Below, piece by piece: positions 3,655 through 64,000 of a DNA stretch of 64,000 bases. The notes beneath the pieces were generated by a model. It had not been told where the DNA came from and ran no database searches. It worked only from the letters and a program-made list of their open reading frames with translations. Position 1 is the first letter of the stretch. Each line of letters begins with the position of its first letter. The stretch is from Chrysoperla carnea. Lineage: Eukaryota > Arthropoda > Insecta > Neuroptera > Chrysopidae. The stretch covers positions 96,457,435-96,521,434 of the forward strand of contig NC_058338.1 of assembly GCF_905475395.1 (NCBI RefSeq). Reading direction: 5' to 3'. The position numbers and the translations under genes were made by a program.

Positions 3655-4626
3655 AGTAGAATAGTCATGCCGGTTCAGCCCACTTTGATGGTAGACAAAA
3701 AGGGCAAACCTACTGAGAAGGAAACCTTGGATGGTACACGAAAGTGGGCGTGGCTGACAGGGCGTTAGTGTGTTTCTTGGCGGAAGTGGGGCTTAAAGAG
3801 GTGGGCGTGGCTGACAGGGTTTTAGTGTGTTTCTTGGCGGAAGTGGGGCTTAAAAGGGGCGGGAATTGGACGTTAGATGAGATAATTGGGCGGTAAATTT
3901 AAATATGGCGCCTGGGCGTGTTTGTACGTTTAAGGGGCGTTAACATTTGACCTCGATACTATGACGTCATCCTTATGCAAGTATGAACATGTCTGATTTA
4001 AATATGGCGCCTGGACGTGTTTGCTTGTTTAAGGGGCGTTAACATTTGACTTCGATACTATGACGTCATCCTTATGCAAGTATGAACATGTCTGAATTCC
4101 AAGAAAAAATAATTATTTTGTATATTATTATGGTAGTCTGATTAGTCAGCAATTCTCAAGAATATGTTGAAATAGATAACATTTGACCTTGAAAAATATG
4201 ATGTCATCATCCTGTTACAAGTTCAAACTTGTTTGAATCGCCTTTGATCTTAAAATAATTTTACACGTGTTATGAGATTAGATAATAATTTGCAAGTATG
4301 AACATGTCTGAATTCCAAGAAAAAATAATTAGTTTGAATATTATTATGAGAGTCTGATTAATCAGCAATTCTCAAGAATATGTTGAAATAGATAACATCT
4401 AACCTTGAAAAATATGATATCATCATCCTGTTACAAGTTCAAACTTGTTTGAATCGCCTTTGATCTTAGAATAATAATTTTACACGTGTTATGAGATTAG
4501 ATAATAATTTGCAAGTATGAACATGTCTGAATTCCAAGAAAAAATAATTAGTTTGAATATTATTATGGGAGTCTGATTAGTCGGCAATTCTCAAGAATAT
4601 GTTGAAATAGATAACATTTGACCTTG
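3655..4626. repeat. Polinton left terminal inverted repeat, with internal tandem modules
   Basis: It matches the right end in inverse orientation. It has three kinds of tandem module: about 58 bp with GTGGGCGTGGCTGACAGGG (two copies, about 3742-3855), about 100 bp with the TGACGTCA palindrome (about 3898-4095, palindromes at 3962-3969 and 4061-4068), and about 217 bp units with CACGTG (4075-4291, 4292-4510, partial to 4626). The right end carries different module numbers, so the two repeats differ in length. Confidence 0.85.
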
Positions 4627-4840
4627 TGCAGATAAGATTTGTTGTTACGACTATATTTATATGTAATACGATGTAATGTAAGGTTTTATTTAATAAAAAT
4701 CTTATAAATATTTTTTGTATATATTAATGATTAAAATTTACATTAAAAAAAATATACAGAAAAAAAATTATTATTATGAATCTGAAAAAAAAGCGACTTA
4801 CATATAAAAAATTGTTATTCACATAAAGTATTGGGTGACA
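4627..4840. other. AT-rich spacer between terminal repeat and ATPase gene
   Basis: This is the 3' side of the minus-strand ATPase gene. Poly(A/T) runs only; no gene is seen. Confidence 0.4.
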
Positions 4841-5848
4841 CTACAGTTCAATAAATTCATAAAATCCATTCCTATAACGACCAGCATTCATAGAGAAATT
4901 TTTCATTATTACAACAAATCCATTTATTGAACTCCAACAATGTCGACATAAATCATGAAATTTTTGAAAATTCATATCAGAGCCAACATGATCGTAGAAT
5001 ATGTGTTTTAGATTCATTTCGTCCGTTTTGAATAACACCAAGCAATTAACATTGTCCCTTATGTTATGCTTTGGAACACGTGCGTAGCTCTGACATAGGT
5101 AGAAACAATCAATTTTTCGATGACGGCCCATACTAAAGTATTCTCTAATTCTCTGTTGTGAATGACAGCTCACATCATCAAAAATGAAAAGACTTTTTTC
5201 TCGAGCTTCATTCGGACTAAGAATTTCACTGGTATCACTAAATGGAAAATAGCCAACCCCCTCCACCAATTTTAAAGTCTCTTCTAGTAATTGATATTTC
5301 GGTTGGTAAAGAGATTTACTGTACACATAAATGTTTTCAAAGCGTAAACCGTTTTCATCATAAATTAAATTCAACATAACATTGGTTTTACCACAACCAC
5401 TAGGGCCACATATTATTGTTCGTAGTGAATCTGAAAATAGAGGACCATGATATGTTTGCGTGTCTGTATTTTCTGGTACAGTAGAACCTCGATAACTTAA
5501 ACCTCGGTAACATAAAAACCTCTGTTACTTCAAAAAATACTATGTTCCCTTCCCATCAGAGCCCAAAACCTCTATAACTTAAAATACGCAACCTCTATAA
5601 CTTAAATAAATAATCTCTGTACAGGCCCTCAGTAACTACATTGAAACATGTACATACCTCTATATTAACTAGGGTACATAGAAGCATGTACATACCTCTA
5701 TATTAACCTTTACCTAACATAGACCCTTGATAACTTAAAACCTCTATAACTTAAAATATTTTGTGTTTCCCTTGGACTTTAACTTATCGAGGTTCTACTG
5801 TATTAAATTTTCAACACTCAGAGCGGGTTGTTGTTTATGAAAACGCAT
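4841..5848 (-). pseudogene. ATP: Polinton FtsK/HerA-type DNA-packaging ATPase, interrupted by a MITE
   Basis: The known role of this family is ATP-driven packaging of DNA into the capsid. Walker A (GPSGCGKTN) is encoded at about 5380-5405 and Walker B (SLFIFDD) lies within 5150-5200. The C-terminal part continues uninterrupted to a stop at 4841. The likely ATG is at 5848-5846, but about 24 codons later a 322-bp MITE with its duplicated TA (5479-5802) splits the gene. Removing the MITE and one TA leaves the frame open on both sides, giving roughly 227 codons, normal for Polinton ATPases. An ATG just after Walker A (5377) would give a protein without the nucleotide-binding loop. So the domain is intact but the 5' end is disrupted. 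The fold call is firm; loss of function is inferred. Confidence 0.88.
5479..5800. mobile_element. Pogo/Tigger-like MITE inside the ATPase gene
   Basis: Terminal inverted repeats CAGTAGAACCTCGATAACTT (left) and the complement at the right end (5781-5800) are flanked by TA on both sides (5477-5478, 5801-5802), as expected of the Tc1/mariner-pogo group. The interior is built of repeated CCTCTATAACTTAAA-like units and has no ORF. Confidence 0.85.
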
Positions 5849-5918
5849 TTTTAATGTAACTAGGACTAAAATTTCAATACAACCAATTTTATAAACATTT
5901 AAATATATGTGAACTTAA

Positions 5919-6692
5919 TTGTTTAAAACATTTAGTAGTATGTCATATCAGAAGCACAAAGGAAGAGGTATTGTTAACACACTTATAAATAAATTACCGT
6001 TTGAGTTACACATACCAACTTATCGATATTGTGGACCTGGAACTAAGCTGACAGAACGATTAGCGCGTGGTGATAAACCAAAAAACGCATTGGATCAGGC
6101 TTGTATGGTACATGATATAGCATATTCAATAAGTAAAGACTTAAAGGAGCGCCATCTAGCAGATAAACAATTAGCTGAAGTCGGTTGGAAACGTGCCAAA
6201 GCATCAACAAGTGGTGAAAAAGCATCCGCTTTATTCGTTATAGGCGCCATGAAGGCAAAAACTTCACTTGGTATGGGATTAAAAAAGAAAAAGACGAAAA
6301 AGTCAAAGAAAACTATAAGCTTTACAGCATCAGTGCGAAAGGCACGAAATGCATTGAAAAAATCACAACCAACGGACTTAAAAGCAGCAGTAAAAATTGC
6401 AAAAGCAGCCGTGCGAGGTCAACGTATTAAAGCACCCACACGTGTAATACCAGTTCCAAAGTCTGGTGGTGTACTTCCATTAATTCCCATATTCGCAGGA
6501 CTCTCTGCTTTAGGTGCTTTGGCTGATGGAGCGTCGGGTATTGCTAAAGCCGTTACAAATTATAAAAGTGCTCGTGATCAACTTAATGAGAGTCAAAGGA
6601 ACAACAAAACAATGGAAGCTATAGCAATGGGTAAAGGCTTGTATTTAAGACCATACAACAAAGGCATGGGATTATATTTAGCAAAAAACTAA
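5919..6692 (+). CDS. Polinton PLA2-domain protein (257 aa)
   Basis: A phospholipase-A2-like domain lies at residues about 35-75: a YRYCGPGT calcium-loop-like segment followed by DQACMVHDIAY, with the catalytic His-Asp pair and paired Cys. Similar domains occur in capsid-associated proteins of parvoviruses and adintoviruses, where they act on endosomal membranes; that role here is inferred. A Lys-rich stretch (residues about 120-135) follows, then a hydrophobic Ala/Gly segment (about 187-210), and a GLYLRPYN...GLYL tail. A second ATG eight codons in (MSYQKH) could also start it. The last codons before the stop are GCA AAA AAC TAA, placing a canonical A AAA AAC slippery site at 6683-6689, immediately ahead of the protease frame. 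Confidence 0.85.
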   Translation: MFKTFSSMSYQKHKGRGIVNTLINKLPFELHIPTYRYCGPGTKLTERLARGDKPKNALDQACMVHDIAYSISKDLKERHLADKQLAEVGWKRAKASTSGEKASALFVIGAMKAKTSLGMGLKKKKTKKSKKTISFTASVRKARNALKKSQPTDLKAAVKIAKAAVRGQRIKAPTRVIPVPKSGGVLPLIPIFAGLSALGALADGASGIAKAVTNYKSARDQLNESQRNNKTMEAIAMGKGLYLRPYNKGMGLYLAKN

Positions 6693-6740
6693 TTGAAACG
6701 CTACCACGTAGAGCACTTTACGATACGGAGCTACGTGCGT
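6683..6740 (+). promoter_or_regulatory. Predicted -1 ribosomal frameshift signal (A AAA AAC plus hairpin)
   Basis: The heptamer AAAAAAC at 6683-6689 is in the register X XXY YYZ relative to the PLA2 frame, one codon before its stop. A hairpin can form at 6698-6740: ACGC (6698-6701) with GCGT, then ACGTAG (6706-6711) with CTACGT (6731-6736), with a four-base bulge. The spacer from heptamer to stem is 8 nt, the usual distance. A -1 slip enters the protease frame exactly. The motif and pairing are seen; frameshifting itself is inferred. Confidence 0.6.
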
Positions 6741-7051
6741 ATGCTAAACAATTTAAAATTCCGTATTTTCGTGGTGTTTTTATGCGTGACACCCTACCCA
6801 AAAGACCATATAAATATGAAACAGGAATTATCAACCATGATGTATCTAAAAATAGTGGCACACACTGGACGGCATATAAAAAGTATAATCGAAATGTTAT
6901 CTATTATGATAGTTTTGGAAATTTGAGACCGCCAGCGGAAGTCATTAAATATTTTAACGGATGTGACATTCAATATAATTTTGATAGGCAACAACAGTTT
7001 AATACTCCGATTTGTGGACATCTATGTATACAATTTTTATTAAATAAATAA
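6689..7051 (+). CDS. PRO: Polinton adenain-like cysteine protease
   Basis: This is the maturation protease of the capsid genes. Catalytic residues are visible: His in GTHWTAY, Asp/Asn region YYDSFGN, and Cys in ICGHLC near the C-terminus. The frame is open from 6635 to the stop at 7049-7051, but the first ATG is at 6782 and would remove the conserved N-terminal segment (LPRRALYD...FKIPYFRGVF). There is no ATG between the preceding stop (6632-6634) and 6782. The most economical reading is entry by -1 frameshift from the PLA2 ORF at 6683-6689; loss of an original ATG, or start at 6782, are alternatives. The reading frame from 6689 gives about 120 residues, a usual Polinton protease size. Confidence 0.82.
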   Translation, partial: LIETLPRRALYDTELRAYAKQFKIPYFRGVFMRDTLPKRPYKYETGIINHDVSKNSGTHWTAYKKYNRNVIYYDSFGNLRPPAEVIKYFNGCDIQYNFDRQQQFNTPICGHLCIQFLLNK

Positions 7052-7088
7052 ACCAGCAAGTCTTGTATACACATCATTCAAAATCAAG

Positions 7089-7766
7089 ATGTCATACATG
7101 CTTACTTTTACAGGGGATAGCTCTTTTTTAACAACAGACTATTCTCCAGCAATTGAATTGGATAAAAATGAAAATTATGAAATGGGTTTAGTAGATTTAC
7201 AAGCGTACAATTCCATACCTAATATATTCAGCCAAAATAACATGTTTTATTATGATGATAAAGTCGTAGAAATACCTCCAGGATCTTATGAAGTTGAAGA
7301 TATTGAACGTTATTTAAAAGAAGCTGTAGGTGATGAGGTGACACTACAAATAAATGCTAATACAAATACATTAAAATGTGAAATAAAGTGTACTGTGATA
7401 ATAAACTGTGAACCATCAGATTCTGTTTGTCGCATGTTGGGATTTAATAAACGAAAACTAGATGCAAATAAAAGACATGAAAGTGACAATACAGTTAATA
7501 TTTTACCTGTAGAAACAATTTATGTTCAATGTAATATTACAAATGGATCATATCATAACAACGAAATCAGTCACACATTGTTTCATTTTTCATCAAATCT
7601 ACCACCAGGCTATAAAATTGTGATACATCCTATGAATGTTATTTATTTACCAATCAACTGTCAAACTATAAGCAACATTACGCTCATGTTAGTGGACCAA
7701 ACAGGTAAATTAGTTAACTTTCGAGGTGAAAACATTACAATTGGATTACACTTGAAAAAGATATAA
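7089..7766 (+). CDS. PY: Polinton minor capsid (penton-like) protein, 225 aa
   Basis: This matches the single-jelly-roll minor capsid family of Polintons by its N-terminal segment (ELDKNENYEMGLVDLQAYNSIPNI, quoted here only in part: MGLVDLQAYNSIPNI) and its C-terminal VDQTGKLVNFRGENITIGLH segment. The composition is beta-rich without membrane segments. It would form the capsid vertices. The start follows the protease stop by 37 nt. Its stop overlaps the next start in a TAATG junction (7764-7768). Confidence 0.85.
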   Translation: MSYMLTFTGDSSFLTTDYSPAIELDKNENYEMGLVDLQAYNSIPNIFSQNNMFYYDDKVVEIPPGSYEVEDIERYLKEAVGDEVTLQINANTNTLKCEIKCTVIINCEPSDSVCRMLGFNKRKLDANKRHESDNTVNILPVETIYVQCNITNGSYHNNEISHTLFHFSSNLPPGYKIVIHPMNVIYLPINCQTISNITLMLVDQTGKLVNFRGENITIGLHLKKI

Positions 7767-8056
7767 TGGGTTTTGTATTTAATCATCCTACACGTTATGC
7801 TGGAGGCAGTGTTTCTACAAACCGTCCGATAAAACAACCTCAATCGAGCAACAATAGAATAAAAAATCACAAACAGTTATCATACGAAAATAGAAAATTT
7901 CTTCAATCAAGTTGGCTTAAAACTAAAACGGCCAATTGTTGGGTAAAATTTAGTTGTTGGCTTAAAATAAAGAAATCAGTTATACGAATAAAATTCAATT
8001 GTATTAAGAAGAAGAAGAAGAATGGCAGAAATATTAGAAGTGACCAATGTACCTGA
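7766..8056 (+). CDS. Small basic Polinton ORF between minor and major capsid genes
   Basis: The ATG shares its A with the stop codon of the minor capsid gene (TAATG). The N-terminus (MGFVFNHPTRYAGGSVSTN) and the FLQS segment recall a short conserved ORF that often lies in this position in Polinton-like elements; its function is unknown to me. The 96-residue product is Lys/Arg-rich, and its C-terminal third, including a poly-Lys run from GAAGAAG repeats, looks degenerate. The last 35 nt overlap the major capsid start in another frame. Confidence 0.55.
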   Translation: MGFVFNHPTRYAGGSVSTNRPIKQPQSSNNRIKNHKQLSYENRKFLQSSWLKTKTANCWVKFSCWLKIKKSVIRIKFNCIKKKKKNGRNIRSDQCT

Positions 8057-9218
8057 GTACGATAATGTTATTTCAGGACTAGAGTATCACAACCACCAAG
8101 CTTATAATTCATCGAAATTTGAGCGAAGCGATGAGAGTAGAATTTGCATTCAATCACAAGACTTGTACACATTACCAAGTGAAAGTGTTTTAAATATCGA
8201 AGGTCAAGTGACTGATGATGATGCTACAAATGCAGCCAGCTTCATATCGAATGCTATATCATTTATGTTTCATGAAATTCGTTATGAAATTGGTGGTAAG
8301 GTAATTGATGTGATTAATAACGCAGGCATCGTTAGCACTATAAAAAACTATCTATCCCTAAACGAAAATCAAAGTAAAGCTTTAGAGAATGCTGGCTTTG
8401 GTGAAAATTTTAAAAAGGATGTTGCTGGTTACTTCAATGTTCGTATTCCATTGAAAATGTATATGGGTTTTTTTGAAGATTATCCTAAAATTCTCGTAAA
8501 CATGAAACAAGAAATCGTTATTGTTCGTGCAAATGATGATATTAATTGTTTTACCTCAACTGTCGCAACAAGCAAACCTAAAATTAAAATCAACAAATTA
8601 GAATGGTGTGTTCTATACGTTAAAGTGTCTGATAAAATGCGAGTCAAATTATACGACTTAGTCAATCAAAATGATGATTTGAGGTTATGGTTTCGATCAA
8701 TGGAATGTCTACTTATACCAGAACTACCATTAACTGATAGGCATGTGTGGAGTGTTAAAACTAGTGTAGAATGTCCTAACTACGCTGTTATCTGTTTCCA
8801 AACAAATCGTGACCGCAACATTTTAAAAGATTCCAGTCAGTTTGACTATTGTAACATAACAAATTTGAAAGTCTATTTAAATGGTGAAGCCTACCCATAT
8901 GTGAATTTGAATCTAAATTACACAAACAATCAAACAGCGTTACTGTATGAAATGTATTGTAATTTTCAAAAATCGTACTATAAACGCTCTATAACAGAAC
9001 CATTGCTAGATAAAGAAACGTTTATAAATAAATCATCTCTATTTGTCATTGACTGTTCTAAGCACCCAGAGTCACTTAAATCTACAACAGTGGACTTGCG
9101 CGTTGAGTTTGAAGCTAGTGTTAATTTCCCAGCTAAAACGCGTGCGTATTGTATAGTGTTCCATGATCGATTATTTAAATACAATCCACTTACGAATATT
9201 GTGAATAGAGTAGTTTAA
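8022..9218 (+). CDS. PX: Polinton double-jelly-roll major capsid protein, 398 aa
   Basis: The sequence has the pattern of the insect Polinton double-jelly-roll-like family: N-terminal VTNVPEYDN, ISFMFHEIRYEIGGKVID, YMGFFEDYPKILVN, CFQTNRDRN, NLKVYLNGEAYPYVNLN and the terminal FPAKTRAYCIVFHDRLF. No stop or frameshift interrupts it and the length is usual for this family. The product would form the hexagonal capsomers. The stop is followed after one base by the next ATG (TAAAATGG). Confidence 0.9.
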   Translation: MAEILEVTNVPEYDNVISGLEYHNHQAYNSSKFERSDESRICIQSQDLYTLPSESVLNIEGQVTDDDATNAASFISNAISFMFHEIRYEIGGKVIDVINNAGIVSTIKNYLSLNENQSKALENAGFGENFKKDVAGYFNVRIPLKMYMGFFEDYPKILVNMKQEIVIVRANDDINCFTSTVATSKPKIKINKLEWCVLYVKVSDKMRVKLYDLVNQNDDLRLWFRSMECLLIPELPLTDRHVWSVKTSVECPNYAVICFQTNRDRNILKDSSQFDYCNITNLKVYLNGEAYPYVNLNLNYTNNQTALLYEMYCNFQKSYYKRSITEPLLDKETFINKSSLFVIDCSKHPESLKSTTVDLRVEFEASVNFPAKTRAYCIVFHDRLFKYNPLTNIVNRVV

Positions 9219-9219
9219 A

Positions 9220-9649
9220 ATGGCGTACATAGTGGACGTACAGGGTTTCAAAGTAAACAATGAATTCATCGTTAAAGAACTTAGTTTTGTGGATACAAAT
9301 GGTAACCACTTTGGACATTATGTATTCAAACCGCCATTTCCATTTAACACATTAAGTGATTCGGATAAGAGAAAAGCAATTTGGCTCTCAAATAATTACC
9401 ATGGCTTATACTGGAATCAAGGAGCCACCGATTATTGCGAGTTATCAACCATTTTAACACACATTGCTAATCATAATTAGCAATATATACTGCAAAGTTA
9501 TATACTGCAAAGTTGAAGAAAAGAAAATTTGGATTAAAAAATTAATTCGAAATTCAACAAGGGCAGTCCACATTGAAAATTTGGATGGTGGAAAACCGCT
9601 CCATAAGAATGACAGTGTATCAAAAGCTCTATGCATCTATCAACATTAA
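9220..9649 (+). pseudogene. Conserved Polinton ORF after the capsid gene, frameshifted
   Basis: The N-terminal 86 codons (MAYIVDVQGFKVNNEFIVKE ... NYHGLYWNQG) belong to a family I recognise next to capsid genes in insect Polintons; its function is not known to me. A stop falls at 9478-9480, but coding-like sequence continues in the +1 frame to 9649 (KIWIKKLIRNSTRAVHIENL). Just after the stop a 15-bp unit (atactgcaaagttat) is present twice in tandem at about 9486-9516. I read this as one gene broken by an indel near 9464-9480, with its C-terminus lost. Confidence 0.6.
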
Positions 9650-10362
9650 CATTGTACCACAAATATTATTATGTATTTATTACATTATTTTTTAATAGAT
9701 CTTTATGCGGAGGTGCTTGTTGATTATTATAACAATAAATAATATTAAAAAATAAAATGATTGTCCTTATTCATATTTTGTATTTTGTTTTAATCTAAAA
9801 TTGTAATTTTTTTTAAATAAAAAATTTTTTTATCTAATCTGTAGTACAAGTAGATTTATTATTATTCCTTATAAAGAGCATATTATATGGGTTGATTGAT
9901 GATGCTTGTTAGGTTATTAAGCACTGTTTATCAACTGTATTCGCTTCGTGCGTGATTTTCGTTTCCATGACAACGATACACTACTTTAATTATAGAATTG
10001 TATGGATGCATATATAATTATATGGATTGCATTGAAAACTTACATTTAAAATTTAATATTCTTGTTTCACAAATTTAAATAAATAATTATGATAATTTAC
10101 ATTTGAAAAATAATATTTGTACAATTTGATTTCTTATTTTCACAATTTTTAATGCATTAAGTTTAATTAATTAGTGTTTTTCAATCATTTTAATTTGACA
10201 GTTTCTATATCATTAACATGTAAAGAATTGCAAATTAGTCATAACAGCCCCCTTTATCTCCAAATTTTTTCACTTAAAGCGCTGGCATCGATTTTATTAT
10301 CCCTACCATGACTACGCACACAACGAATAGGTCATTTAATTTGCAAGCATTCATGTGATAAC
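9650..10362. other. Non-coding gap in the Polinton
   Basis: AT-rich sequence with several AATAAA-like motifs (around 9735-9760). No ORF or repeat is seen. It probably holds the 3' end of the capsid transcription unit and the promoter of the next gene. Confidence 0.4.
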
Positions 10363-11340
10363 ATGCTTCAGACAACGAAACAGCTAGCTAAGTTGAGTGA
10401 TATTATACAGAAAAAGTATAACGCGCTCAAACCTGGTGAACAAACAACGGCCATTTCATTAGAAAAAACATTTAAGCCCATCACTGATCCGTTGAATAAG
10501 CTAGTAGAAAAACAAGAGAATAAAAATGATTATACTCGAATTAATATAAAACGCAAGATGGAAGATGATACCTTTGAAGACAATAAAGATGAACTATTAA
10601 ATTATACGCCAATGAAGGCTCGAAAATTATTTGAAGGTACTCCAGTAGTGACAAAACAAAAAAATCTATCAGACACCTACGAGGATGAGGCATTACACAC
10701 TCCTGATGTTGTATTTAGGGAGATTATAAAATCACCAGAGAATAATCATCATGCACTTCAACATTTTACAAAGACTTATGGAGATGTGGCCGGTAAATAC
10801 ATTTATTTTATATTATCGAATAAAGATGATAAGCTTATCGATAATATTTACGGATTACGTTATGATAATGCTGCTGATAGATTATATGTAGGTAATTCAG
10901 TTGTTCACATTTCGCATAACGATATACAAGTCAACGAAAAATGGTACGACGGGACATCAGGCTTATATGAGCTTTTAGTAAAACAGATACCAAAAAATTA
11001 TTCAGAGCAAGACATGCGTAACTATTTAGAAATTTTAACATCAACAAACGCTAATAGACGGAATTATGACTCTCAGGGTCAAATTCAAGGAACTAGAAGT
11101 TTAAAGTATAAAAATATCATTAAGAAACATCTATACCCATTGGCTCCTGCTTCTGGTAGCGGTCTAACATTATCACGAGTAACTAATAATCCCATAGATT
11201 ATGTGTACTGGAATACAATCGACGAACTTTGTGACAGATTACGGCTATTATGCGTATCACGTGACGCGGGAAATTTCAGCCATCAAAATGAAATCAATAG
11301 TTTGATACAAGAGTTAAAAGAGGAAAATATAATATACTGA
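10363..11340 (+). CDS. Conserved Polinton protein, DUF8207-like, 325 aa
   Basis: The first about 110 residues are polar and charged. A conserved globular region follows at about 140-250: IYGLRYDNAADRLYVGNS, WYDGTSGLYELL, NANRR and SLKYKNIIK, a pattern I associate with DUF8207 proteins common in insect Polintons. The C-terminus (RLRLLCVSRDAGNFSHQNEI) is also family-like. The molecular role is unknown. The gene is intact, begins after a 700-bp gap, and ends one base before a palindrome-rich repeat array. Confidence 0.75.
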   Translation: MLQTTKQLAKLSDIIQKKYNALKPGEQTTAISLEKTFKPITDPLNKLVEKQENKNDYTRINIKRKMEDDTFEDNKDELLNYTPMKARKLFEGTPVVTKQKNLSDTYEDEALHTPDVVFREIIKSPENNHHALQHFTKTYGDVAGKYIYFILSNKDDKLIDNIYGLRYDNAADRLYVGNSVVHISHNDIQVNEKWYDGTSGLYELLVKQIPKNYSEQDMRNYLEILTSTNANRRNYDSQGQIQGTRSLKYKNIIKKHLYPLAPASGSGLTLSRVTNNPIDYVYWNTIDELCDRLRLLCVSRDAGNFSHQNEINSLIQELKEENIIY

Positions 11341-12205
11341 AAACCGGATCTGTTTCTAAACAGACCAGTATTAAACCGGTCAAAACCAGTATTAAACAGA
11401 CCTGTTTCTAAACAGACCTGTTTCTAAACAGACCAGTATTAAACAGGTCAAAACCAGTATTAAACAGACCTGTTTCTAAACAGACCAGTATTAAACAGGT
11501 CAAAACCAGTTAGTACAAGATCCGAATTAGGGTCGACCTTCACCCATCTGTTTACCGAATGAAAGTTATTTTTTATGAAATGTAAAATATTAACAAATAT
11601 TCCTGTAACGGGTTGCCTTAAAAAATATGGTCCAGACCATTTTTAATATAAATATCAAAACTTGGAAAGCTTGTAAACATTATTTTTGACCAATATTTTG
11701 TGGCCAATCATATGCCACCGTAATTGTAACAAAATTATCTTTATTTAGATATGCGAGTCAATGAATTAACAGATGCACGTAATTACTATTTCCAACTTGT
11801 ATAAATGCGATAATAGTGAACGAAAAAAGGCAAACAACATAGCTGCTGCATATTCTTTATGGCTTTTACTTTCGAGTAGATCAAAATTCGTAAGATATGC
11901 AAGTCAGTGAAAAATTTCTAAAAATTTTAATCTTGATATTTTCACTAAAAGTAGTCTGGACCACATTTTTATAGGCAACCCATTGCAGGGATATTTGTTA
12001 ACATTTTATATTTCATAAAAAATAACTTTCATCCGGTAAACAGATGGGTGAAGGTCGATCCTAATTGGGATCTTAGACTAAGTATTAAACAGACCTGTTT
12101 CTAAAGAGACCAGTATTAAAACAGGTCAAAATCAGTATTAAACAGACCTGTTTAGATACAGACCAGTATTAAACCGAGCTGTTTCTAAACAGACCTGTTT
12201 AGATT
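11341..12205. repeat. Palindromic tandem array (CTGTTTCTAAACAG units), split by a MITE
   Basis: The left part (11341-11507) and right part (12081-12205) share units of about 52 bp made of two alternating modules: the palindrome CTGTTTCTAAACAG and CCAGTATTAAACAGGTC-like boxes. The array falls between two plus-strand genes and is non-coding. A 570-bp MITE sits inside it with a 3-bp target duplication. Confidence 0.75.
11511..12080. mobile_element. MITE with about 110-bp inverted repeats inside the array
   Basis: The left end TAGTACAAGATCCGAATTAG and the right end (complement of TAGTCTAAGATCCCAATTAG) continue as inverted repeats for about 110 bp. AGT flanks both sides (11508-11510 and 12081-12083), and removing the element plus one AGT restores the array motif ccagtattaaac. 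No ORF. Confidence 0.75.
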
Positions 12206-12261
12206 TTATATTTATTATAAGTAATTATTAAAATTACATCATTAACCATTGAGAACTCAAT

Positions 12262-12681
12262 ATGAACGGTATAGATAAATTTGGACGTCCTCTCTTCAAA
12301 AATTATCAAGATTCATATACATCACATAATGAATCAATACTTCGATATAATGGCGGAAATAATTGCTTCGATGCAAAACAAAGACGAATTGTGAATGTCG
12401 GGAAACCTATAAATAAGCAAGATGTTGTGAACTTGGAAAGTCTTACAGAAAAGTGTTTGTCATTAGATGATGATGATAAAGAATCATACTTTGACGCAAA
12501 AAATAAAAAAATAAGTAATGTAGCAAGTCCAGAATTTTCCACTGATGCTGTAGATTTATACACCCTTACCAATCATGTTAGTGATAAAATCAATAACACT
12601 ACTGAAATATTTAACGAGAGTCTGAAAAAATTAAATGGTTATTTTCAAATATCAATACGTAATACACTACTACTAATATGA
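12262..12681 (+). CDS. Fibre-like repeat protein of the Polinton, 139 aa
   Basis: Two imperfect repeats of about 45 residues are seen: CFDAKQRRIVNVGKPINKQDVVNLESL and YFDAKNKKISNVASPEFSTDAVDLYTL (FDAK..K/RI.NV..P....DAV.L..L). Such FDAK/NV-P/DAVNL units resemble fibre or trimerisation repeats of viral attachment proteins; the function here is inferred only. The N-terminus reads MNGIDKFGRPLF. The stop overlaps the next ATG as ATGA (12678-12681). Confidence 0.6.
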   Translation: MNGIDKFGRPLFKNYQDSYTSHNESILRYNGGNNCFDAKQRRIVNVGKPINKQDVVNLESLTEKCLSLDDDDKESYFDAKNKKISNVASPEFSTDAVDLYTLTNHVSDKINNTTEIFNESLKKLNGYFQISIRNTLLLI

Positions 12682-12914
12682 GGGTTTACTTATTTAGATT
12701 TCCGATCTCTGGAGTGATACATTATTTAAATATTAAACCGAAATACTGTGAGGTCTTCAAAAACGATACTATTATAGATAAAAATAAACTTAATACATTA
12801 AAATCAAACGATTATTTAACGTTTGGTATTTCTAAAAGTTTCATGACTACAAACCCCGATTCCATGTTACTACATGTTGACATTGGTATAAAATATAAAT
12901 TAATAGATGGATAA
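12678..12914 (+). CDS. Small ORF of unknown function, 78 aa
   Basis: It starts in an ATGA overlap with the fibre-like gene and its last 8 nt overlap the integrase start, a packing unlikely by chance. No domain is recognised; the product is mixed polar/hydrophobic (RVYLFRFPISGVIHYLNIKP). It could be the remnant C-terminal part of the upstream protein after an indel. Confidence 0.45.
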   Translation: MRVYLFRFPISGVIHYLNIKPKYCEVFKNDTIIDKNKLNTLKSNDYLTFGISKSFMTTNPDSMLLHVDIGIKYKLIDG

Positions 12915-13829
12915 AAGACGAATTGTTGTGAATGAGCTACATAAACCAGCTCGACGTAATTATCCAAGAAGAAATAAATCATTAAGGGACTCAATGATTT
13001 ATTTCAAGCTGATTTGGTAGAAATGATCCCGTATGCAAGACAAAATACCAACTTTAAGTATATTTTGGTGGTCATCGATTGCTTCTCCAAATATAGCTGG
13101 GCTATTCCACTAAAGTCCAAGAATGCGGTGGATGACACTAATGTCATGGAACAGATTATAAAAGATCGTACACCGAAAAACCTTCAAACTGATAATGGTA
13201 CTGAATTTTACAATGAAAAATTAAAGAGATTGATGAAAGAGTACAACATAAACCATTATTCTGTGTATTCAACTAAAAAGGCGTGTATTGTGGAAAGATT
13301 TATACGCACACTGAAATCGATGATGTACAAACATTTCAGTTTGTATGGTAATTACAAATGGATAAAAGTATTACCGGAATTGATTAAACAGTACAATAAT
13401 TCATACCATCGGACAATCAGGATGAAACCATCACAAGTCAATACACGAAACGAAAAACGGGTTTTAAATGATTCGTACAATCATATTAAGATGGTGGGTC
13501 CAAAACAAAAATTTACAGTTGGTGATCATGTAAGGATAAGTAAATTTAGAACGACGTTTGCTCGTGGTTTTCATCCATCATGGACACCAGAAATATTCAC
13601 CGGTCGCGAGGTGAAACTTACAAATCCAAGAACATATTTATTGAAGGATTACAACAACGAAGATATAAAGGGTGGTTTCTATGCCGAAGAATTACAAAAA
13701 GTTCATGATCCAAACATTTATTTAGTGGAAAAGGTCTTAGCTAAACGTGGATCCAAAGTTAAAGTTCGGTGGTTAGGGTTCGACTCTTTACACGATTCAT
13801 ATATTGATAAAAAAAGTCTCCTTTTATAG
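12907..13829 (+). pseudogene. INT: Polinton retroviral-type integrase, frameshifted near its N-terminus
   Basis: This is the DDE recombinase that inserts the element. The core has Asp in VVIDCFSKYSWAIPL, Asp in LQTDNGTEF and Glu in CIVERFIRTLK, spaced as in rve integrases. A C-terminal chromodomain-like segment follows (YLVEKVLAKRGSKVKVRWLG). The likely ATG at 12907 opens an N-terminal basic segment (HKPARRNYPRRNKS) that runs out of frame at about 12985-12990; the frame of the core resumes at once (ctc aat gat at 12990). A one-base deletion explains this. From 13014 on the frame is open to the stop at 13829. Core residues are intact, so loss of function rests on the frameshift alone. Confidence 0.88.
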
Positions 13830-14067
13830 TGGAACGTTTTTGAGAACATACTTGTAACAAAAAAAATTTGTCATAGTGAACCGCTTTTGTGAACATATTT
13901 GTGTTTTAAAAAAGGAAATGTATTTTTAATATGATAAAAAATAAAAGATAAGAAAGTAAAACTATTTATTGTAAAATTTTATCTATAACATATAAAAACA
14001 GAGTTGTATTATAATAATATTTAAAAAATATATATTTATAAATTATCGAAATACATTATTATAATTA
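13830..14067. other. Convergent 3' junction, no gene
   Basis: This is where the plus-strand block (integrase) and the minus-strand block (acidic protein, polymerase) meet tail to tail. It holds AATAAA-like sequences on both strands and no ORF. Confidence 0.4.
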
Positions 14068-14517
14068 TTATTCTGAAAAGTGTCCATTGTCATCATCATC
14101 ATCATCATCATCATCTTCACCATCATCTTTCTTCATAAGATAATTTTCAATCATTTCTTTCACTTGAACATAGTCGGATAACTCGTCTGATGTAAATACA
14201 CTGTAGTAAGATTGTTCAAAAATGGATAGTCCTACAATTCCATCTGTTTGTCCAGAGTGGATATTTTTTAAAATCCAGTTCCAAATTTGACTGTCTTCAT
14301 TGTCTGACGATGGGGAAAATTTCACTTCTAAGCCCATTTGTTCTACCTTATCAATAAGGAAGTTTAAAGTTTCCGGTCGACCACATTTAATTGTCATATT
14401 AACCAATGTTTTAAAATACTTTGTTAACACATTGTTTATAGTACTTAAACTACAATTTTCTTTAATCATATTAACAATACAGTTGTTATCAATATTATGA
14501 TTACCAAAGTTTTGCAT
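14068..14517 (-). CDS. Acidic Polinton protein of unknown function, 149 aa
   Basis: Not recognised. The product is largely helical-looking and polar, with a C-terminal run of nine Asp residues encoded by an (ATC)n tract (about 14090-14117) followed by NGHFSE. It sits downstream of the polymerase on the same strand. Acidic tails are common in viral DNA- or histone-binding proteins, but I assign no function. It is uninterrupted. Confidence 0.5.
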   Translation of the reverse strand: MQNFGNHNIDNNCIVNMIKENCSLSTINNVLTKYFKTLVNMTIKCGRPETLNFLIDKVEQMGLEVKFSPSSDNEDSQIWNWILKNIHSGQTDGIVGLSIFEQSYYSVFTSDELSDYVQVKEMIENYLMKKDDGEDDDDDDDDDNGHFSE

Positions 14518-14748
14518 TTTGTATGTTTAAACTAACACTAAATTGTTTTCTACAATAATTCTACCTAACTATCAATTTTTTGACCCCCCACCACTACTCT
14601 ATCAATTGTTTTACTACTTTTAAATTGTTCATGCACACTACTCTATCAATTGTTTTGTAGTTACCACTTTGAGTTGAACCCATGGTTTTGTTTCACATGA
14701 ATTGTGAGTAATGTATCGTTTTTGATCGTATGGTGATAAGCCCACTTT

Positions 14749-17700
14749 CTACTGTTTGATGGTATGTAAGCGATGTCGCTTGGATTGGATGCTTTGCTGA
14801 ATACGGTAAAAGTTACGGTTCTCAAGCAAACACCGTTTATAGTCCTCAAAAGTAAGTTTTCGGATAGCTGACTTCTTGATACCCTTGAATCGTTTAGTCT
14901 CTTTTTTATTTTGCACCCGAATAGCATACATTTTGCTACGTAATCCGACAAATTCTATCATAACATAACCATTATTTTCATCGGACATTATACCCTTGAC
15001 TTTCTTATTACGTAGTGGTATACCATAGACGTTGTCGGGTGTATAGTCAGCAGTATCAAAACGATCAATAACCTGCTTCATGACCTCATAGACATCAATA
15101 TTGCGTATTTTATATATCAGACTGTCGGTGTCGGTATACAAGAGCTGTACATTTTCTTGGCCATATCGAATGTACATATATTTGTAATGGAAAACTAGTG
15201 GATTTATTTTCGAATTGTCCAAAACAACGAACCCTAGGTAAATCGCTATTTTGAAAAATATACAGGTCTTCTTCATCTCCACAATACTGACGTCATTGTC
15301 GAGCACCATCATACTATGAAAATTGGGTTTGGCAATTAATTTCTTCACACCATATTTTCCATCCCAATTTTTTCGTATGTACACAACCCGATGTTTCCTC
15401 AAATTCTCCATGGTCTTACCGAAGATGGCATTAATCATGAGTTTGTATAGAGACTTTTCAAACTCATTTGAGGCGTTCTTGCGCATTTCGGTATTGAACT
15501 CAATATATGGTTTCAACCATGCAGATTGATCGAATTGTAACACACGGTGGTATTTTGTTACCTTAACACCGAGTTGTGTATACAGTTTTAAATTCCTGTA
15601 GTGTACGACATAGTTGGTCTTATTGTAAAGGGTTGACAGCAGATATTTTTGTTTTGATCCAGGTGATTTCGTTGTCTCCGGACATGGCGGTAAATCGCTA
15701 AAGTAATCATGTAGATGTTGGGGTATTTCAAGGTCTACTTCTAAAATGTACCCGACTGGTGAATCATCTGCAACATCCTCGATGTTTGGTGTGTCGACCC
15801 ACTTAAAATTTCTGGTTGGAAGATATCCACACATTGCTGCACCATATAGGTTCACCACATCATAATACATAAGGTAGACATCTTCTTGAGTTTTATCATA
15901 CCCCTCTTCCATGTACTTATTGTTTGCCTTAGCATAGCGATTAGAACATTGACTTACACCGCCTCTGATTCCTTTCTCGATAAACAACAAGTCATCAATA
16001 TCCGTGAACAATTCCAATTTGATATTGGTGTATTTCAACATGGCGCTCCACGTATAGCCAGGAAGTGTGTAATAGTGAGTGGGATCGAGGCCATAGCTAT
16101 GAATACAAGTGTTACGAAAATTTTCAAAAATATCCGCAAGTAGTAACACATTAGTTTTCATATGCAGGTCTGAATAATCACCTAGTGTATGTAAATTGAA
16201 TGTGTTCCATACCTGTATAGCATGGTTATAATCCTCCTCCGTTATGTGTTCATCTGTTAACACACTGTAGAACGCCTCCTTTGGTGGTAATTTTGTCTCT
16301 TGGAGACGTTCCCAGCTACTCATGTATTCATATGGAAATACACCTTTTCTCGTTAGCAATTGAAAATGTTCATCATTACTGACCTATAAAAAATTAGAAA
16401 ACAAATTACAGCCCTGTATTAAAAATTATTTATTTTTTATCATTTACCTCTTTATGTAAAATGGATTTTTTATCATTATCTAAATATGAGGCCAGATTTT
16501 CTAACTTGTCTGCGAGAAATCGGAAGGAATCGATGAATCTTAGTTGAATGTCCGAGACGTGCTTTATGAAACTGATGTATTTCTCTTTGTTTATGGGCAA
16601 CACGTCAACTTGACCGTCGATTTCCGCCAGCAGAGTTTCAATAATAAAATGTGAATCGTATCCACTTAAGTTGTGCATCACAACAGGTATCATCCTTGAA
16701 TCTTGATAATGCAGATTACAAAATTGGTGTGCTGCTCCACGGTAGATACCTAAAATAGATTGATATAAAATTAGATGAAATTAAAAAAAAAATAAATAAC
16801 TTGCATTACCTGTGCGATGTGAATGGTCGCGAACACGAATGGAATTGGATACGAAATCTTTACCATAAATGTGACACTTCTCTGCTGACATAAAATTCAG
16901 TTCTTGTTCGACGGTGAGCGGACACATTGGTTCAACGTGTTTTATTTTTTGCTCTAATGAGTACGCTACTTGTTCCAGTTCACGAACAAACCACTTGACA
17001 CAATCAGCACCACGGTATGCCTTGTAGAATGATTGGTTGGGATCATGAGTACAATGTACATAATACCCCACACTGTAGGGTATATGTTTTTGAATATTTT
17101 GTGTATAAGACTCATGATCCGTTTCCATGTGTTCATGGTCCTGAGGTACCAATAGTGCCTCAAAGTCTGCGTACACCATATACTCAACACGTTCCTTGGT
17201 GTTGAAATCTTTGAAATCAACGAACCGCTCGTCATCAGTTTCAGGCATTCGTACCCGCACCGCTTCTTTTTCACCACAATTTACTGAATGTTGCCGGAGT
17301 TTATCGTCGGTTGAAAAATAGTTGAGACATCGATCGCATAAATAAATTTTATGCTCGCGTTTTGTTACACCCGATTGACTCAACTTTGCTAAATTTTTTA
17401 TCCAGCAAAAGTGGTAACTATTCCCATTCTCTATAGCCAATAGATGAATTTTCTGCCCCGCACTGTTCGAGCTAACGCGTACCGGAAAAATTTCTAAACC
17501 ACGTAGAAACGTATCTTTGTAGCCGTACACGTTAATCGATAAATGCAGGTTCATCTTTTCAAATTTATTAATTTGATCTAGAGACATGGGAAACTCTAAT
17601 CCATCATATTTCAAATAATGACTATAGTGCGGGTACTTAGTTAAACGTTGAGGATGCTTTTCAACCGGAAATAATGCAGACATTATCGACCATAAAAAGC

Positions 17701-18545
17701 AATGTTGGTCTTTATTCTGGACATTAATCACAGCCAATTTATTTCTGATGACTGGTGGTAGTATACAAAATGTTCCAGCCGTGATCGGAGAGTACTTATT
17801 CATGTGGACTCGAAAATTTATGATCATGTCAAGAGCCCAACCGCTATCGCGTTCCTGAAATTCTTCCAATTTTTTCAACAAATAGTTTTTGACATGATCA
17901 GTGTACCACTCCTGCATGTCCGTGGTCAGATACATTTCCTCGGCCGACGTTATAAAAGTTTTCAAATCCTCCTCTTTGGTGCTGGGCTTAATGAAATTGC
18001 CTGTGAACATAATATACACCTGAAATAAAATTCAAGATCTCATAAGACTATTTAAATTATAAATCTTAAATTTTACTTACCTTGAGGGGATGCTTCACTA
18101 GCTCACGCCGAACGTGTCGTCGGAACATTGGAAATGCCCGTTTGAAAAACACTATTGGATCTTTATAATCCAAATTTGTAATCATACCAGTCTTCACTCT
18201 GCCCAGGTGGTGGGTTGCAATTGTCTCCCAGATTAGATGTCGATTTTGTTTTTTGGTGACACCACCACCTTGCTTAACTAAATCTAATCGCAGTCGGTGA
18301 AGTTGCCGCTGGTATGATTTACAAAGTCCCATATAAGCTTCAAGACGCAGAGGATTTTCTTTCTTTAACATCAACATCTTTTTCAATAAGCGGATGTTCT
18401 GCTTATTAAGTACCATCCATCGCTCAGCTTCCTCCGCCGTCTTGATGAGCCTCAACGCTCTCTCCACTTTCTTCATCATATCCATGCTACCACCTTGAGG
18501 TACCACGTTTAGCATCTGCATAACATTTTGTTCGTAGGTGTCCAT
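14749..18545 (-). CDS. POLB: Protein-primed family B DNA polymerase, four exons, premature stop
   Basis: This polymerase replicates the element. Exons: 18545-18081 (465 nt), 18019-16810 (1210), 16749-16448 (302) and 16383-14749 (1635). Introns of 61, 60 and 64 nt have GT-AG ends (GTAAGT, GTAATG, GTAAAT donors) and phases 0, 1, 0. The joined length is 3612 nt in one frame (1203 aa plus stop), typical for Polinton polymerases. Visible motifs: a Cys/His segment CDRCLNYFSTDDKLRQHS, ExoI YADFEAL, ExoII HNLSGYDSHF, ExoIII KTNVLLLADIF, motif A YYDVVNLYG, motif B KLMINAIFGK and motif C YTDTDSL. The ExoIII Asp appears as Asn (codon 16150-16152). The TAG at 14749-14751 looks premature: family-like sequence (KVGLSPYDQKRYI) continues in the same frame to about 14641. 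Exon 1 has no recognised domain. Confidence 0.92.
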
Positions 18546-18603
18546 CTTTCGAAAAAATTATATTTAAGTTACACAATAATATTTAAAAAATTTATACACT
18601 TAC
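18546..18603 (-). other. Predicted 5'UTR intron of the polymerase gene
   Basis: On the minus strand a GTAAGTG donor at 18603-18597 and a TTTTTTCGAAAG acceptor abutting the ATG (18545) bound a 58-nt AT-rich segment. Its size matches the three coding introns. It is inferred from splice-site sequence only. Confidence 0.5.
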
Positions 18604-18952
18604 CGTTATATTTTCAAATACTAAACAAAATATACGTTACCGAACGTTCAACACTAAAGTTAACATATAAATGAGAAATATTTGTTTTTTTTATAAAATA
18701 TATAGACCAAGTTTAGAATAATAAATATATAGACTAAGTTTAGAATAATAAATATATAGGTATCAAAAACAAAAAAAAAATAATAATAAAAATAAAAATA
18801 AGGTAAAAAATATATGGAGTGCAGAAAATACTAACTGAACCAAAGATGAATTTCAAAAGAGATACTTCAAAAGCTACGTACATCACTTTTTATAGCTTTA
18901 TCCCCCCCCCCCCTAAAAAAGTCGTAATTTGATATTTTTATAGTCGTAATTC
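18604..18952. other. Upstream region of the polymerase gene
   Basis: AT-rich, with a repeated tatagacyaagtttagaataataaa unit (about 18705-18760) and a C11 run near 18902. No ORF. It lies between the right terminal repeat and the polymerase and probably holds its transcription start. Confidence 0.4.
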
Positions 18953-20065
18953 AAACTAATTATTTTTTCCTGGAATTCAGACATGTTCATACTTGCATAA
19001 GGATGGCATCATAGTATCAAGGTCAAATGAATTATTTGAGAATTGCTGACTAATCAGACTACCATAATAATATACAAACTACTTATTTTTCTTGGAATTC
19101 AGACATGTTCATACTTGCAAATTATTATTTAATCTCATAACACGTGTAAAATTATTTTAAGATCAAAGGCGGTTCAAACAAGTTTGAACTTGTAACAGGA
19201 TGATGACATCATATTTTTCAAGGTCAAATGTTATCTATTTCAACATATTCTTGAGAATTGCAGACTAATCAAACTCTCATAATAATATTCAAACTAATTA
19301 TTTTTTCTTGGAATTCAGACATGTTCATACTTGGTAATTATTATCTAATCTCATAACACGTGTAAAATTATTTTAAGATCAAAGGCGATTCAAACAAGTT
19401 TGGACTCGTAACAGGATGATGATATCATATTTTTCAAGGTTAGATGTTATCTATTTCAACATATTCTTGAGAATTGTTGACTAATCAGACTACCATAATA
19501 ATATACAAACTAATTATTTTTTCTTGGAATTCAGACATGTTCATATAAGGATGACGTCATAGTATCGAAGTCAAATGTTAACGCCCCTTAAACATGCTAA
19601 CACGCCCAGGCGCCATATTTAAATCAGACATGTTCATACTTGCATAAGGATGACGTCATAGTATCGAGGTCAAATGTTAACGACCCTTAAACATGCAAAC
19701 ACGCCCAGGCGCCATATTTAAATCAGACATGTTCATACTTGCATAAGGATGACGTCATAGTATCGAGGTCAAATGTTAACGCCCCTTAAACGTACAAACA
19801 CGCCCAGGCGCCATATTTAAATTTACCGCCCAATTACCTCATCTAACGTCCAATTCCCGCCCCCTTTAAGCCCCACTTCCGCCAAGTAACACACTAACAC
19901 CCTGTCAGCCACGCCCACCACTTTCAGCACCACTTCCGCCAAGAAACACACTAACGCCCTGTCAGGCACGCCCACTTTCGTGTATCATCCAAGGTTTCCT
20001 TCTCGGTAGGTTTGCCCTTTTTGTCTACCATCAAAGTGGGCTGAAACCGGCATGACTATTCTACT
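18953..20065. repeat. Polinton right terminal inverted repeat
   Basis: This is the inverse of 3655-4626, ending ...CATGACTATTCTACT. TGACGTCA palindromes lie at 19552-19559, 19651-19658 and 19750-19757, in about 100-bp modules with gcgccatatttaaat. CACGTG-bearing about 217-bp modules lie inside. It has one more CRE-type module than the left end. It sits just upstream of the polymerase gene. Confidence 0.85.
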
Positions 20066-24724: not shown

Positions 24725-27700
24725 TTAATTCGATAATTCTCCACCTGTATCCATGCTCTCGTGATCGCTATTATTAATATTATTATTATCCACATCTGAA
24801 ACATAAGGTTTCAGCATATTATAATGATAAGTTTTTAATTTATTTTTAATTTTTATCGTGGCTGTGTGGTTTTCAGCATGATCCTGTATTAGTTCGTAAG
24901 GACCAGTATAAGAAGGTTCTAACTTTCGGTTATGTTGAACTCTTCGAAGTTTGTTTTCTAATAAACCGTATTTAACGTTTTCAAAGTTTTTCTCTTTAGT
25001 TTTTCTATCATAATAGCATTTATTTATTTCTTTAGATTTCATTAAATTATCTTTTGCAGTTTTTCTAATTTGTTTTGCTCTATTTAGAATGTCTTGAGCT
25101 AAATTATGATAAGTTGGTTTTTCTCTAGGTTTTTCTATTAGTCTAGGGATCTGTGGCTCTTTACCAAATACGAGAGTATATGGTTTCTCTTGTGTACTCC
25201 TATTTATATGGGTATTATGGCTATGTATGGCCAAATAAATGAGCTCGTCCCAATCATTACCATTTTCTAAAATATATGCTCTTAAAAAGGTTTTTATTGT
25301 CAAATGAGATCTTTCGATCGAGCCGTTGCTTTGGGGATGGTAAGGTGTTGAGGTTTTATGTTTTATGGACAAAATATTTGTTATTTCTTTGAAAAGTTTA
25401 TTTAAAAATTATGTTCCTTGATCTGTCAATATAGTATTAGGGAATCCAAAGATAGTGCAATATTTCAATAGATGAATAGCACAGATTTCTGCATTTGCTT
25501 CAGGTATTGGGTATATATTAATTATTTCAGGAAATTGTTCTCGTGAAGGATGAATCAAATCTCCCGTAATTAAAATGATTTCTAAATTATCTGGCATAAT
25601 ATATTCTAATATACCTTCGAAAGTGTCTTGCTTTATATTTCGAGAAACGTTTGGTATATTTACCATTTCTATTTTATTTATTTGGTTAATTGTCAATACT
25701 TGACTTAAGTTGGTCAAAGATTGAAATAAATTTTCATATGTGATGTTTTCAGAAGGTTTTTCTCTTAATATTATAATGAATAAGTTTTCATTATTCGTTG
25801 AGTTTAATTTAAAAACATCATTTATTTTTGGTTTTTGTACATTCTTTAAACTAGTATTAGTTTGTATATAGAATGAATACGTATTGTTCATAGATAAATC
25901 TGTAGAATATGGTATTACTAGATTTTCTATATCTTCAAAAGTTTTATTAATTTTTTTGAATTGTTTAGGGTCTAAATTTCTTTGGTGGAAATCTTTAAAA
26001 GTATTAAAATTTTTTGGTAAAATTGCATTTATTATTGGTCTAGACTAGATAAAGCGTCAGCATTTGTTAATGTTTTACCGGCTTTATACACAATTTTATA
26101 ATTGTATTCTAGTAATTTTAATCTCCATCTTACGAGTCGAGATGACGGATCTTTACAATACATCAAGTATTGTAATGGGCGATGATCAGAAACTATGGTA
26201 AATTCTTTGTTTCCGAAATAAAATGTTTAACCGATTGTACAATAGCGAGTAATTCTTTTTCGGTTGTACTATAATTGCATTCGGCATTATTTAATGTTTT
26301 TGAAAAATAAGCAATTGGTTTATCTTTTGTCAATGGACCTTGTGAGAGAATACTTCCAATTGCTTCATTCGATGCATCCGTTGTTAAGATGAATGGTTCA
26401 TCGAAGTTTGGATATTGTAAAACAGGTTCTGTAGTTAGAGCTGTTTTTAAATTATTAAAAGCTTCTAAGCATTTTTCATTAAATTCAAAAGGTACACCAT
26501 TTTTTAATAACCTTGTTAATGGTTTAGCTATTTGTGCGTAATTTTTAATAAATCTACGATAATAGCCAGTTAAACCTAAAAATGATTTAATTTCTTTTGT
26601 ATTTCTCGGCGGTTTTCTGTTCATAATCGCTTCAACTTTATTTGGATTAGGTTTTACACCGTCTTGAGTAATAATATGACCTAGATATTGCGCTTCTTTT
26701 TTCAAGAATTCGCATTTGTCGGGTTGTAATTTTAAATTATGTTTACGTAGTTCTTTAAATATTCTTATGAGTTTATCATTATGATCTTTTAAGTTTTTCC
26801 CAAATATTACTACATCATTTAAGTATACAAAACAATCATGACCTAAATTATTTACAAGCACAGTGTTCATTAATCTTTGAAATGTGCTAGGGGCGTTCCG
26901 GAGCCCAAATGTCGTTCTATTATATTCAAAATGACCACGGGGAGTCGAGAAGGCGATCTTTGGTTTGTCTTCTTCCTCCATTAAAATTTGATGAAATCCT
27001 GAAGCCAAATCGAGAATACTGAAGTACACTGAGTTACCTAATTGGTCTAAAATTTCTTCTATATTAGGTATTGGAAAAGAATCCGGTACAGTTACTTCAT
27101 TTAACTTACGGAACTCTGATACGATTCTCCATCTTTGTTCATTTGAATTTTCTAAACGCTTTTTTGATACGACCCATAAAGGCGAAGACCACCCACTGGT
27201 AGAAGGGCGTATTATATTTTGTTCAAGCATCTTTGTGATTTGTTTGTTTACCTCTTCTTGATGAATTTTAGGATATCTATAATTTTTTGTAGCAATAGGG
27301 GTTGGATCATTAAGTATTATTTTATGTTTTAACGTAGGGGTACTAGTAAGTACATCTCCAGGTAAAAAGAATATGTCATTGAAATATTTCACAAATATTT
27401 AATATTTCTTCCCTTTCTTCACTATTTAAATGGTCAATTCTAATATTTTGTTTGAGTATGTCTAGCCTCTCCATTTTATTCTTTATGGTAATAAATACTT
27501 TTTGAATTGGGCACGTTTTTAAATTTAAGTGTGATAATTTAATGTTTTTATCTGAAGTATTTATAACGGGATATGTCTGAGTATCCTTTGTTATGACAAT
27601 ATTTTTTGGTATAATTATGTTTGAAGGCACTTGAGTTTGCTCTTCATCTGTAAGAACGGAATTTTTATTATTGTTTGTAATAAATTTAATGGGTACATAA

Positions 27701-50240: not shown

Positions 50241-55234
<4,994 letters not shown>

Positions 55235-57310: not shown

Positions 57311-64000
<6,690 letters not shown>

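Follow-up and report, generated by a model that had tools for sequence, protein, structure and literature searches.

A candidate −1 ribosomal frameshift signal between the PLA2-domain and adenain-like protease genes of a Polinton in Chrysoperla carnea

The 64,000-nucleotide stretch of Chrysoperla carnea DNA analyzed here (contig NC_058338.1, positions 96,457,435 to 96,521,434; hereafter the window, with coordinates counted from its first letter) contains a Polinton/Maverick-like element, in which an open reading frame (ORF) for a protein with a phospholipase A2 (PLA2) domain is followed in the −1 frame by an ORF for a protease resembling adenain, the adenovirus proteinase. We analyzed the junction of these two ORFs as a candidate site of −1 programmed ribosomal frameshifting (Table 1). 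The PLA2 ORF ends with GCA AAA AAC TAA (6681-6692). The −1 frame is preceded by TAA at 6632-6634, stays open from 6635 through 7048 and closes with TAA at 7049-7051, and a listing of its codons in the window contains no ATG, GTG or TTG before 6782. The junction combines a heptamer of the X XXY YYZ type, in register with the zero frame, with an early zero-frame stop and a long −1 ORF. The initial annotation of this DNA had placed the heptamer in register at the end of the PLA2 ORF and had described a −1 frame that is entered at 6689 and lacks ATG from its upstream stop to 6782; sequence, translation and codon list bear out both points.

Table 1. Features of the element and of the PLA2-protease junction in the window
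Feature	Position	Strand	Basis
Polinton/Maverick-like element with long terminal inverted repeats	3674..20045		repeat pairs
PLA2-domain protein (zero frame), 250 amino acids	5940..6692	+	Pfam PF08398 Phospholip_A2_4, E 1.1e-14; translation
Slippery heptamer A AAA AAC, zero-frame register	6683..6689	+	sequence
Zero-frame stop TAA adjoining the heptamer	6690..6692	+	sequence
Adenain-like cysteine protease, −1 frame as entered after a slip	6689..7051	+	AlphaFold2 model, fold match, active-site conservation
Candidate H-type pseudoknot	6700-6767	+	score −30.05, own simple H-type scorer
First ATG of the −1 frame, within the folded domain	6782..6784	+	codon list

Twelve ORFs of the element, 3,150 codons in total, contain 33 in-frame X XXY YYZ heptamers, three of which are A AAA AAC. 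Two of the 33 sit one codon from the end of an ORF, namely the PLA2 junction and a T TTT TTT closing ORF 18019-16781, the latter falling within an intron-like stretch described below. Given these chance counts, a heptamer next to a stop codon is by itself weak evidence; chance is an unlikely explanation because the junction is conserved across homologues. According to the available portion of one published source, A_AAA_AAC ranks among the most shift-prone heptamers on mammalian cytoplasmic ribosomes (PMC5009743).

The product of the −1 frame gave no match by sequence in Pfam, PHROG or PDB. An AlphaFold2 model built with 29 homologues has a mean predicted local distance difference test score of 89.5, with values of 64 and 61 for the first two ten-residue blocks and 86-98 for the later ones, and its top fold match in PDB is the adenovirus 2 proteinase 1nln (E 1.4e-6). 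Across 30 aligned protease sequences H77, Q120 and C127 are invariant and D92 is at least 90% conserved; we take these residues to have the roles of the adenain active site. The modeled fold and the His/Asp/Gln/Cys order thus fit the adenain family. In the model, a start at the ATG at 6782 (residue 50) would drop the helix 30-39 and most of the strand 45-50, in agreement with the earlier view that conserved N-terminal sequence of the protease precedes this codon. Since such a start removes parts of a confidently modeled domain, translation should enter upstream, near the heptamer.

The relatives of the PLA2-domain protein show a recurrent ending at this junction. A homologue search found 2,929 proteins, of which the best 120 were listed and all examined; internal Lys-Asn pairs of the same 120 proteins (174 among 30,653 positions) served as the control set. 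Lys-Asn occurs within the last 14 residues in 113 of the 120, followed before the stop by no residue in 32, one in 52, two in 21 and five in eight proteins. Residues for which no codon ends in A precede Lys-Asn at none of the 113 junctions, compared with 44 of the 174 internal pairs. The codon that follows must begin with T (Phe, Tyr, Cys or stop) at 103 junctions compared with four internal sites. After reduction of the set to 78 representatives, the Lys-Asn arrangement is kept in 73. The seven exceptions among the 120 comprise four lysine-run tails, which suggest A-rich sites, and the proteins P0141 (judged truncated), P0132 and P0221. Codon-level biases of this kind are not explained by a protein motif alone, while A AAA AAY followed by T explains them: it gives Lys-Lys-Leu (or Lys-Lys-Phe) when read in the −1 frame. 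Judged from the residues of these proteins, the slippery site thus appears to be conserved in relatives; the check proposed at the outset, for a conserved heptamer, stop and −1 frame in related elements, is answered positively at this protein level.

Homologues of the protease provide a view of the same junction from the −1 frame. The search found 416 proteins, 120 of which were listed. The predicted starts lie at or upstream of the site in 37, between the site and the conserved core in 45, at the first residues of the core in 23 and deeper in 15. In 11 of the 120, all among the 37, a Lys-Lys-Leu/Ile precedes the conserved Leu/Ile-Pro by exactly three residues, as it does in the window; a looser pattern matched 19, and eight of these were set aside as not at the junction or weaker. 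PLA2 proteins and proteases were paired by eye from contigs of equal length, which gave two trusted pairs (4005 and 13151), one of them decoded. In that pair, P0211 and P0012, the two frames jointly force CCA AAA AAY TGY, that is A AAA AAY T, with the placement of both proteins on a shared contig taken solely from the equal lengths (13,151). For the DNA of relatives, a viral-contig search with PLA2, protease and major capsid protein (MCP) queries confirmed no locus, and tblastn against plasmids and phages found nothing. The only genome-contig match, L001, was rejected, as its matching ORF was read as an unrelated archaeal gene.

The RNA downstream of the heptamer can be folded into a candidate H-type pseudoknot that begins 10 nucleotides (nt) past it. 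Stem 1 pairs 6700-6711 with 6731-6744, with bulges at 6738 and 6742; stem 2 pairs 6722-6730 with 6759-6767 and has terminal G-U pairs; and loops 1, 2 and 3 are 10, 0 and 14 nt long, loop 3 being A/U-rich. Its score was equalled in none of 1,000 and in one of 20,000 dinucleotide shuffles. A scan of the two strands of the 64 kb covered 127,230 starts and left out a better-scoring TA microsatellite; 17 starts reached −30.0, of which nine represent the junction site and the rest come from two other loci (5633-5698 on the minus strand and 63260-63325 on the plus strand). Among the 2,620 positions of the plus-strand block of the element, the junction scores best. The hairpin alone (6700-6744) has only a slight advantage over shuffled sequence (z −1.5 to −1.8) and is not convincing by itself. 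The initial annotation had noted a bulged hairpin at 6698-6740, 8 nt after the heptamer; the hairpin is indeed present, while its limits and spacing had to be corrected to 6700-6744 and 10 nt. The pairing of its loop with 6759-6767, absent from that account, is much rarer by chance than the hairpin. An Rfam scan returned one weak sub-threshold match, away from the junction.

In relatives that form a minority lineage the two domains are joined in a single frame. A search aimed at such fusions, with P0097 (a fragment fused in frame) as a query, returned 73 proteins, of which 15, P0097 included, run from the PLA2 C-terminal sequence into the protease without a change of frame; P0265 and P0266, both among the 15, are damaged at the junction. 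Examples are P0243-P0248, P0251 (Trichogramma) and P0261 (Temnothorax); Trichogramma brassicae and Temnothorax americanus are among the source species named. Five of the 15 (P0243, P0245, P0248, P0251 and P0261) retain Lys-Asn ahead of the protease core; P0264 has it too, but its upstream stretch is very short. An alignment of 11 fused proteins has the junction consensus Lys-Lys-Asn-Phe. The presence of such fusions in another lineage suggests a natural role for the fused product. The PLA2 proteins P0288, P0292, P0295, P0297, P0302 and P0309 end in long lysine runs followed by Thr (tails of the Lys-Lys-Lys-Lys-Thr type), and tails of this kind suggest that A AAA AAC is replaced there by a site for poly-A slippage. 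We read in-frame fusion and putative poly-A slippage as alternative ways to the same PLA2-protease fusion. An uninterrupted fused ORF, or an in-frame ATG just before the protease core, had been named beforehand as an observation that would speak against frameshifting: fused ORFs do exist and some clades have an upstream Met, while no protein of fusion length is found among the 120 closest PLA2 homologues listed (maximum 306 amino acids).

Under the proposed mechanism, most ribosomes would read AAA AAC TAA and release the PLA2 protein. In some, held up by the pseudoknot ahead, the tRNAs in the P and A sites would slip from A AAA AAC to AAA AAA, and reading would pass through Lys-Asn-Leu into the protease frame. 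Translation would thus yield the PLA2 protein together with a minor PLA2-protease fusion, in the manner of Gag and Gag-Pro, and by the same analogy the PLA2 protein would carry a low dose of the protease into the particle. The slippage, its rate and the delivery of the protease to the particle by the fusion are what we infer, while the joining of the two ORFs by a −1 shift at A AAA AAC, as first proposed, is supported by the protein-level conservation.

The element itself is bounded by terminal inverted repeats of approximately 3674-4626 and 18949-20045, whose pairs are 91-99% complementary and about 14.4-16.1 kb apart; the repeats hold internal repeated units, resulting in many overlapping inverted-repeat pairs. 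Its Pfam matches include a double-jelly-roll-like major capsid protein (PF21738), an integrase (rve, PF00665) and a piece of a Pox_A32-type ATPase (PF04665). Terminal inverted repeats together with genes for capsid, integrase, protease and packaging ATPase mark it as Polinton/Maverick-like. Long minus-strand ORFs lie within 14749-18019; two pieces scanned in Pfam gave no PolB match, and we presume these ORFs to be PolB-like from their motifs. Between them are two GT..AG intron-like stretches on the minus strand (16809-16750, 60 nt, and 16447-16384, 64 nt), one of which contains an in-frame stop while the other spans a frame change, and the polymerase may be spliced, not broken. Elsewhere in the window, similar-looking pieces of C2H2 zinc-finger genes lie on the minus strand at 2275-2955, 37826-38506, 44349-45002, 53847-54485 and 63630-63983; Pfam scans of the first and third gave one sub-threshold ZAD match. 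A retroelement with a minus-strand reverse transcriptase (26193-27392) is located between the zinc-finger copies.

Several other explanations of the junction were considered. The protease could be produced independently of PLA2, with a start of its own at an internal or non-AUG codon or with its own mRNA, the overlap with PLA2 being incidental. Consistent with this, the database entries of 115 of the 120 listed proteases start with Met, without distinction between ATG, GTG and TTG; in several clades the −1 frame contains a Met ahead of the site, and nine proteases have a distinct N-terminus. However, the frame in the window offers none of the three start codons before 6782, the predicted starts scatter as expected of gene callers forced onto any available start codon, and the conserved Lys-Asn with its codon neighbors at the PLA2 end would be left unexplained, so that we regard a separate start as unlikely. 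Loss or gain of a base in this copy of an ancestral in-frame fusion is a considerably less probable account: the 15 in-frame fusions give it a precedent, whereas the 120 closest PLA2 homologues listed are all too short for a full fusion, 113 of them end alike, and P0123, which is 94% identical and comes from another dataset, has the identical ending.

The two frames could also be joined in the mRNA. The intron-like stretches of the PolB-like region imply that transcripts of the element may meet the spliceosome, and the vicinity of the junction offers 22 GT..AG pairs, 45-250 nt in length, that are compatible with the frames. In the ten best of these pairs, however, donors match 3-6 of nine consensus positions and acceptors 5-7 of ten, compared with 7 and 7 for the donors and 7 and 7 for the acceptors at the PolB sites, and splicing would not conserve Lys-Asn and its neighbors; we consider it highly improbable here. 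Transcriptional slippage on the A run, yielding mRNAs in the other frame, might be favored by the six A's of the site and by the longer lysine runs at the ends of some relatives. Six A's are short for slippage by RNA polymerase II, and the pseudoknot, like the T that follows the site, points to a ribosomal event; a transcriptional origin is just as hard to sustain.

A number of observations weigh against programmed frameshifting at a conserved site, or against its generality. Among the 37 proteases that reach the site, 26 lack the Lys-Lys-Leu/Ile spacing; in some clades the −1 frame has a Met ahead of the site; and nine proteases of 147-148 amino acids (P0036, P0039, P0045, P0058, P0070, P0073, P0076, P0112 and P0116) have a distinct N-terminus of approximately 27 residues and may use another expression route. 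P0132, P0221 and P0141, the last judged truncated, do not fit the Lys-Asn-stop rule. Among 23 more distant PLA2-type proteins from the fusion-aimed search, only 15 end with Lys-Asn plus at most five residues, one of these having His, none of whose codons ends in A, in front of Lys-Asn and another having Gly behind it, while the remaining eight mostly have lysine-rich tails. The in-frame fusions mean that the frame relation is not universal. Conservation is seen at the protein level only, where Asn may stand for AAC or AAT, and the pseudoknot is predicted from the sequence of the window. As for the RNA, the scorer was written after the pairing had been spotted by eye, the spacer of 10 nt exceeds the 5-9 nt usual in −1 frameshift signals, and folding of a 120-nt window gives a rival nested structure.

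Taking both sides together, we conclude that the PLA2 and protease ORFs very probably form one −1 programmed frameshift unit predicted to make a minor PLA2-protease fusion. We hold with somewhat less confidence, yet still as the probable state of affairs, that an arthropod lineage of Polintons makes its protease only as a minor fusion by means of a conserved A AAA AAY T and a pseudoknot, which would be an independent Gag-Pro-like system of dosage and delivery in double-stranded DNA elements, with in-frame fusion or poly-A slippage in some sublineages. To our knowledge, virion production by Polintons is still open, and the loading and timing of their protease are not settled. If true, a conserved ratio-setting frameshift predicts that the PLA2 virion-type protein and the protease share one particle, the latter as a minor fusion; it would also constitute a clear convergence of a DNA element with retroviruses, and would give annotators a reason for protease genes in which no start codon is apparent. 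The frameshift is likely general for this Polinton lineage, a familiar type of signal in a new context.

The closest functional parallel is retroviral gag-pro, in which a structural protein lies upstream, the maturation protease is in the −1 frame, and an A-rich heptamer is located near the stop, as here. In contrast, the element described here is a DNA element, its protease is a cysteine enzyme of the adenovirus type, and a PLA2-domain protein takes the upstream place of Gag. The candidate pseudoknot also differs in its bulged stem 1 and its 10-nt spacer, and we do not claim homology between the two systems. PLA2 domains are also present in parvoviral VP1 proteins. Retroviral Gag-Pro/Gag-Pol signals such as that of mouse mammary tumor virus (MMTV) gag-pro have a downstream H-type pseudoknot, as far as the available portion of the source describes it (PMC5009743), to which the candidate structure here would correspond. 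No frameshift at a Polinton PLA2-protease junction surfaced in the literature searched, in line with the initial annotation, which knew of none, and the available parts of PMC8097293, PMC6431247, PMC4028283, PMC9952930, PMC8363768 and PMC12567637 do not mention one. The nearest case is found in the accessible text of a preprint on adintoviruses (Buck et al. 2024, PMC11071296), which raises possible slippery sites in Penton and "a similar relationship" for Hexon-Adenain (Hexain), with a −1 prediction by KnotInFrame. This candidate also concerns a Polinton-like DNA virus with adenain as a possible downstream partner, but it has another upstream gene and is a hypothesis of a few sentences, in that text without the PLA2 junction or conservation counts. 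The Mavericks of Spodoptera frugiperda possess a PLA2-domain CAP, noted to resemble parvoviral VP1 in this respect, and an adenain-like PRO; in the portions available, CAP and PRO are treated as separate ORFs and no frameshift is mentioned (PMC5803895). The in-frame fusion ORFs described above share both domains and their order with the junction, but have one unbroken frame that makes the fusion a fixed and not a minor product.
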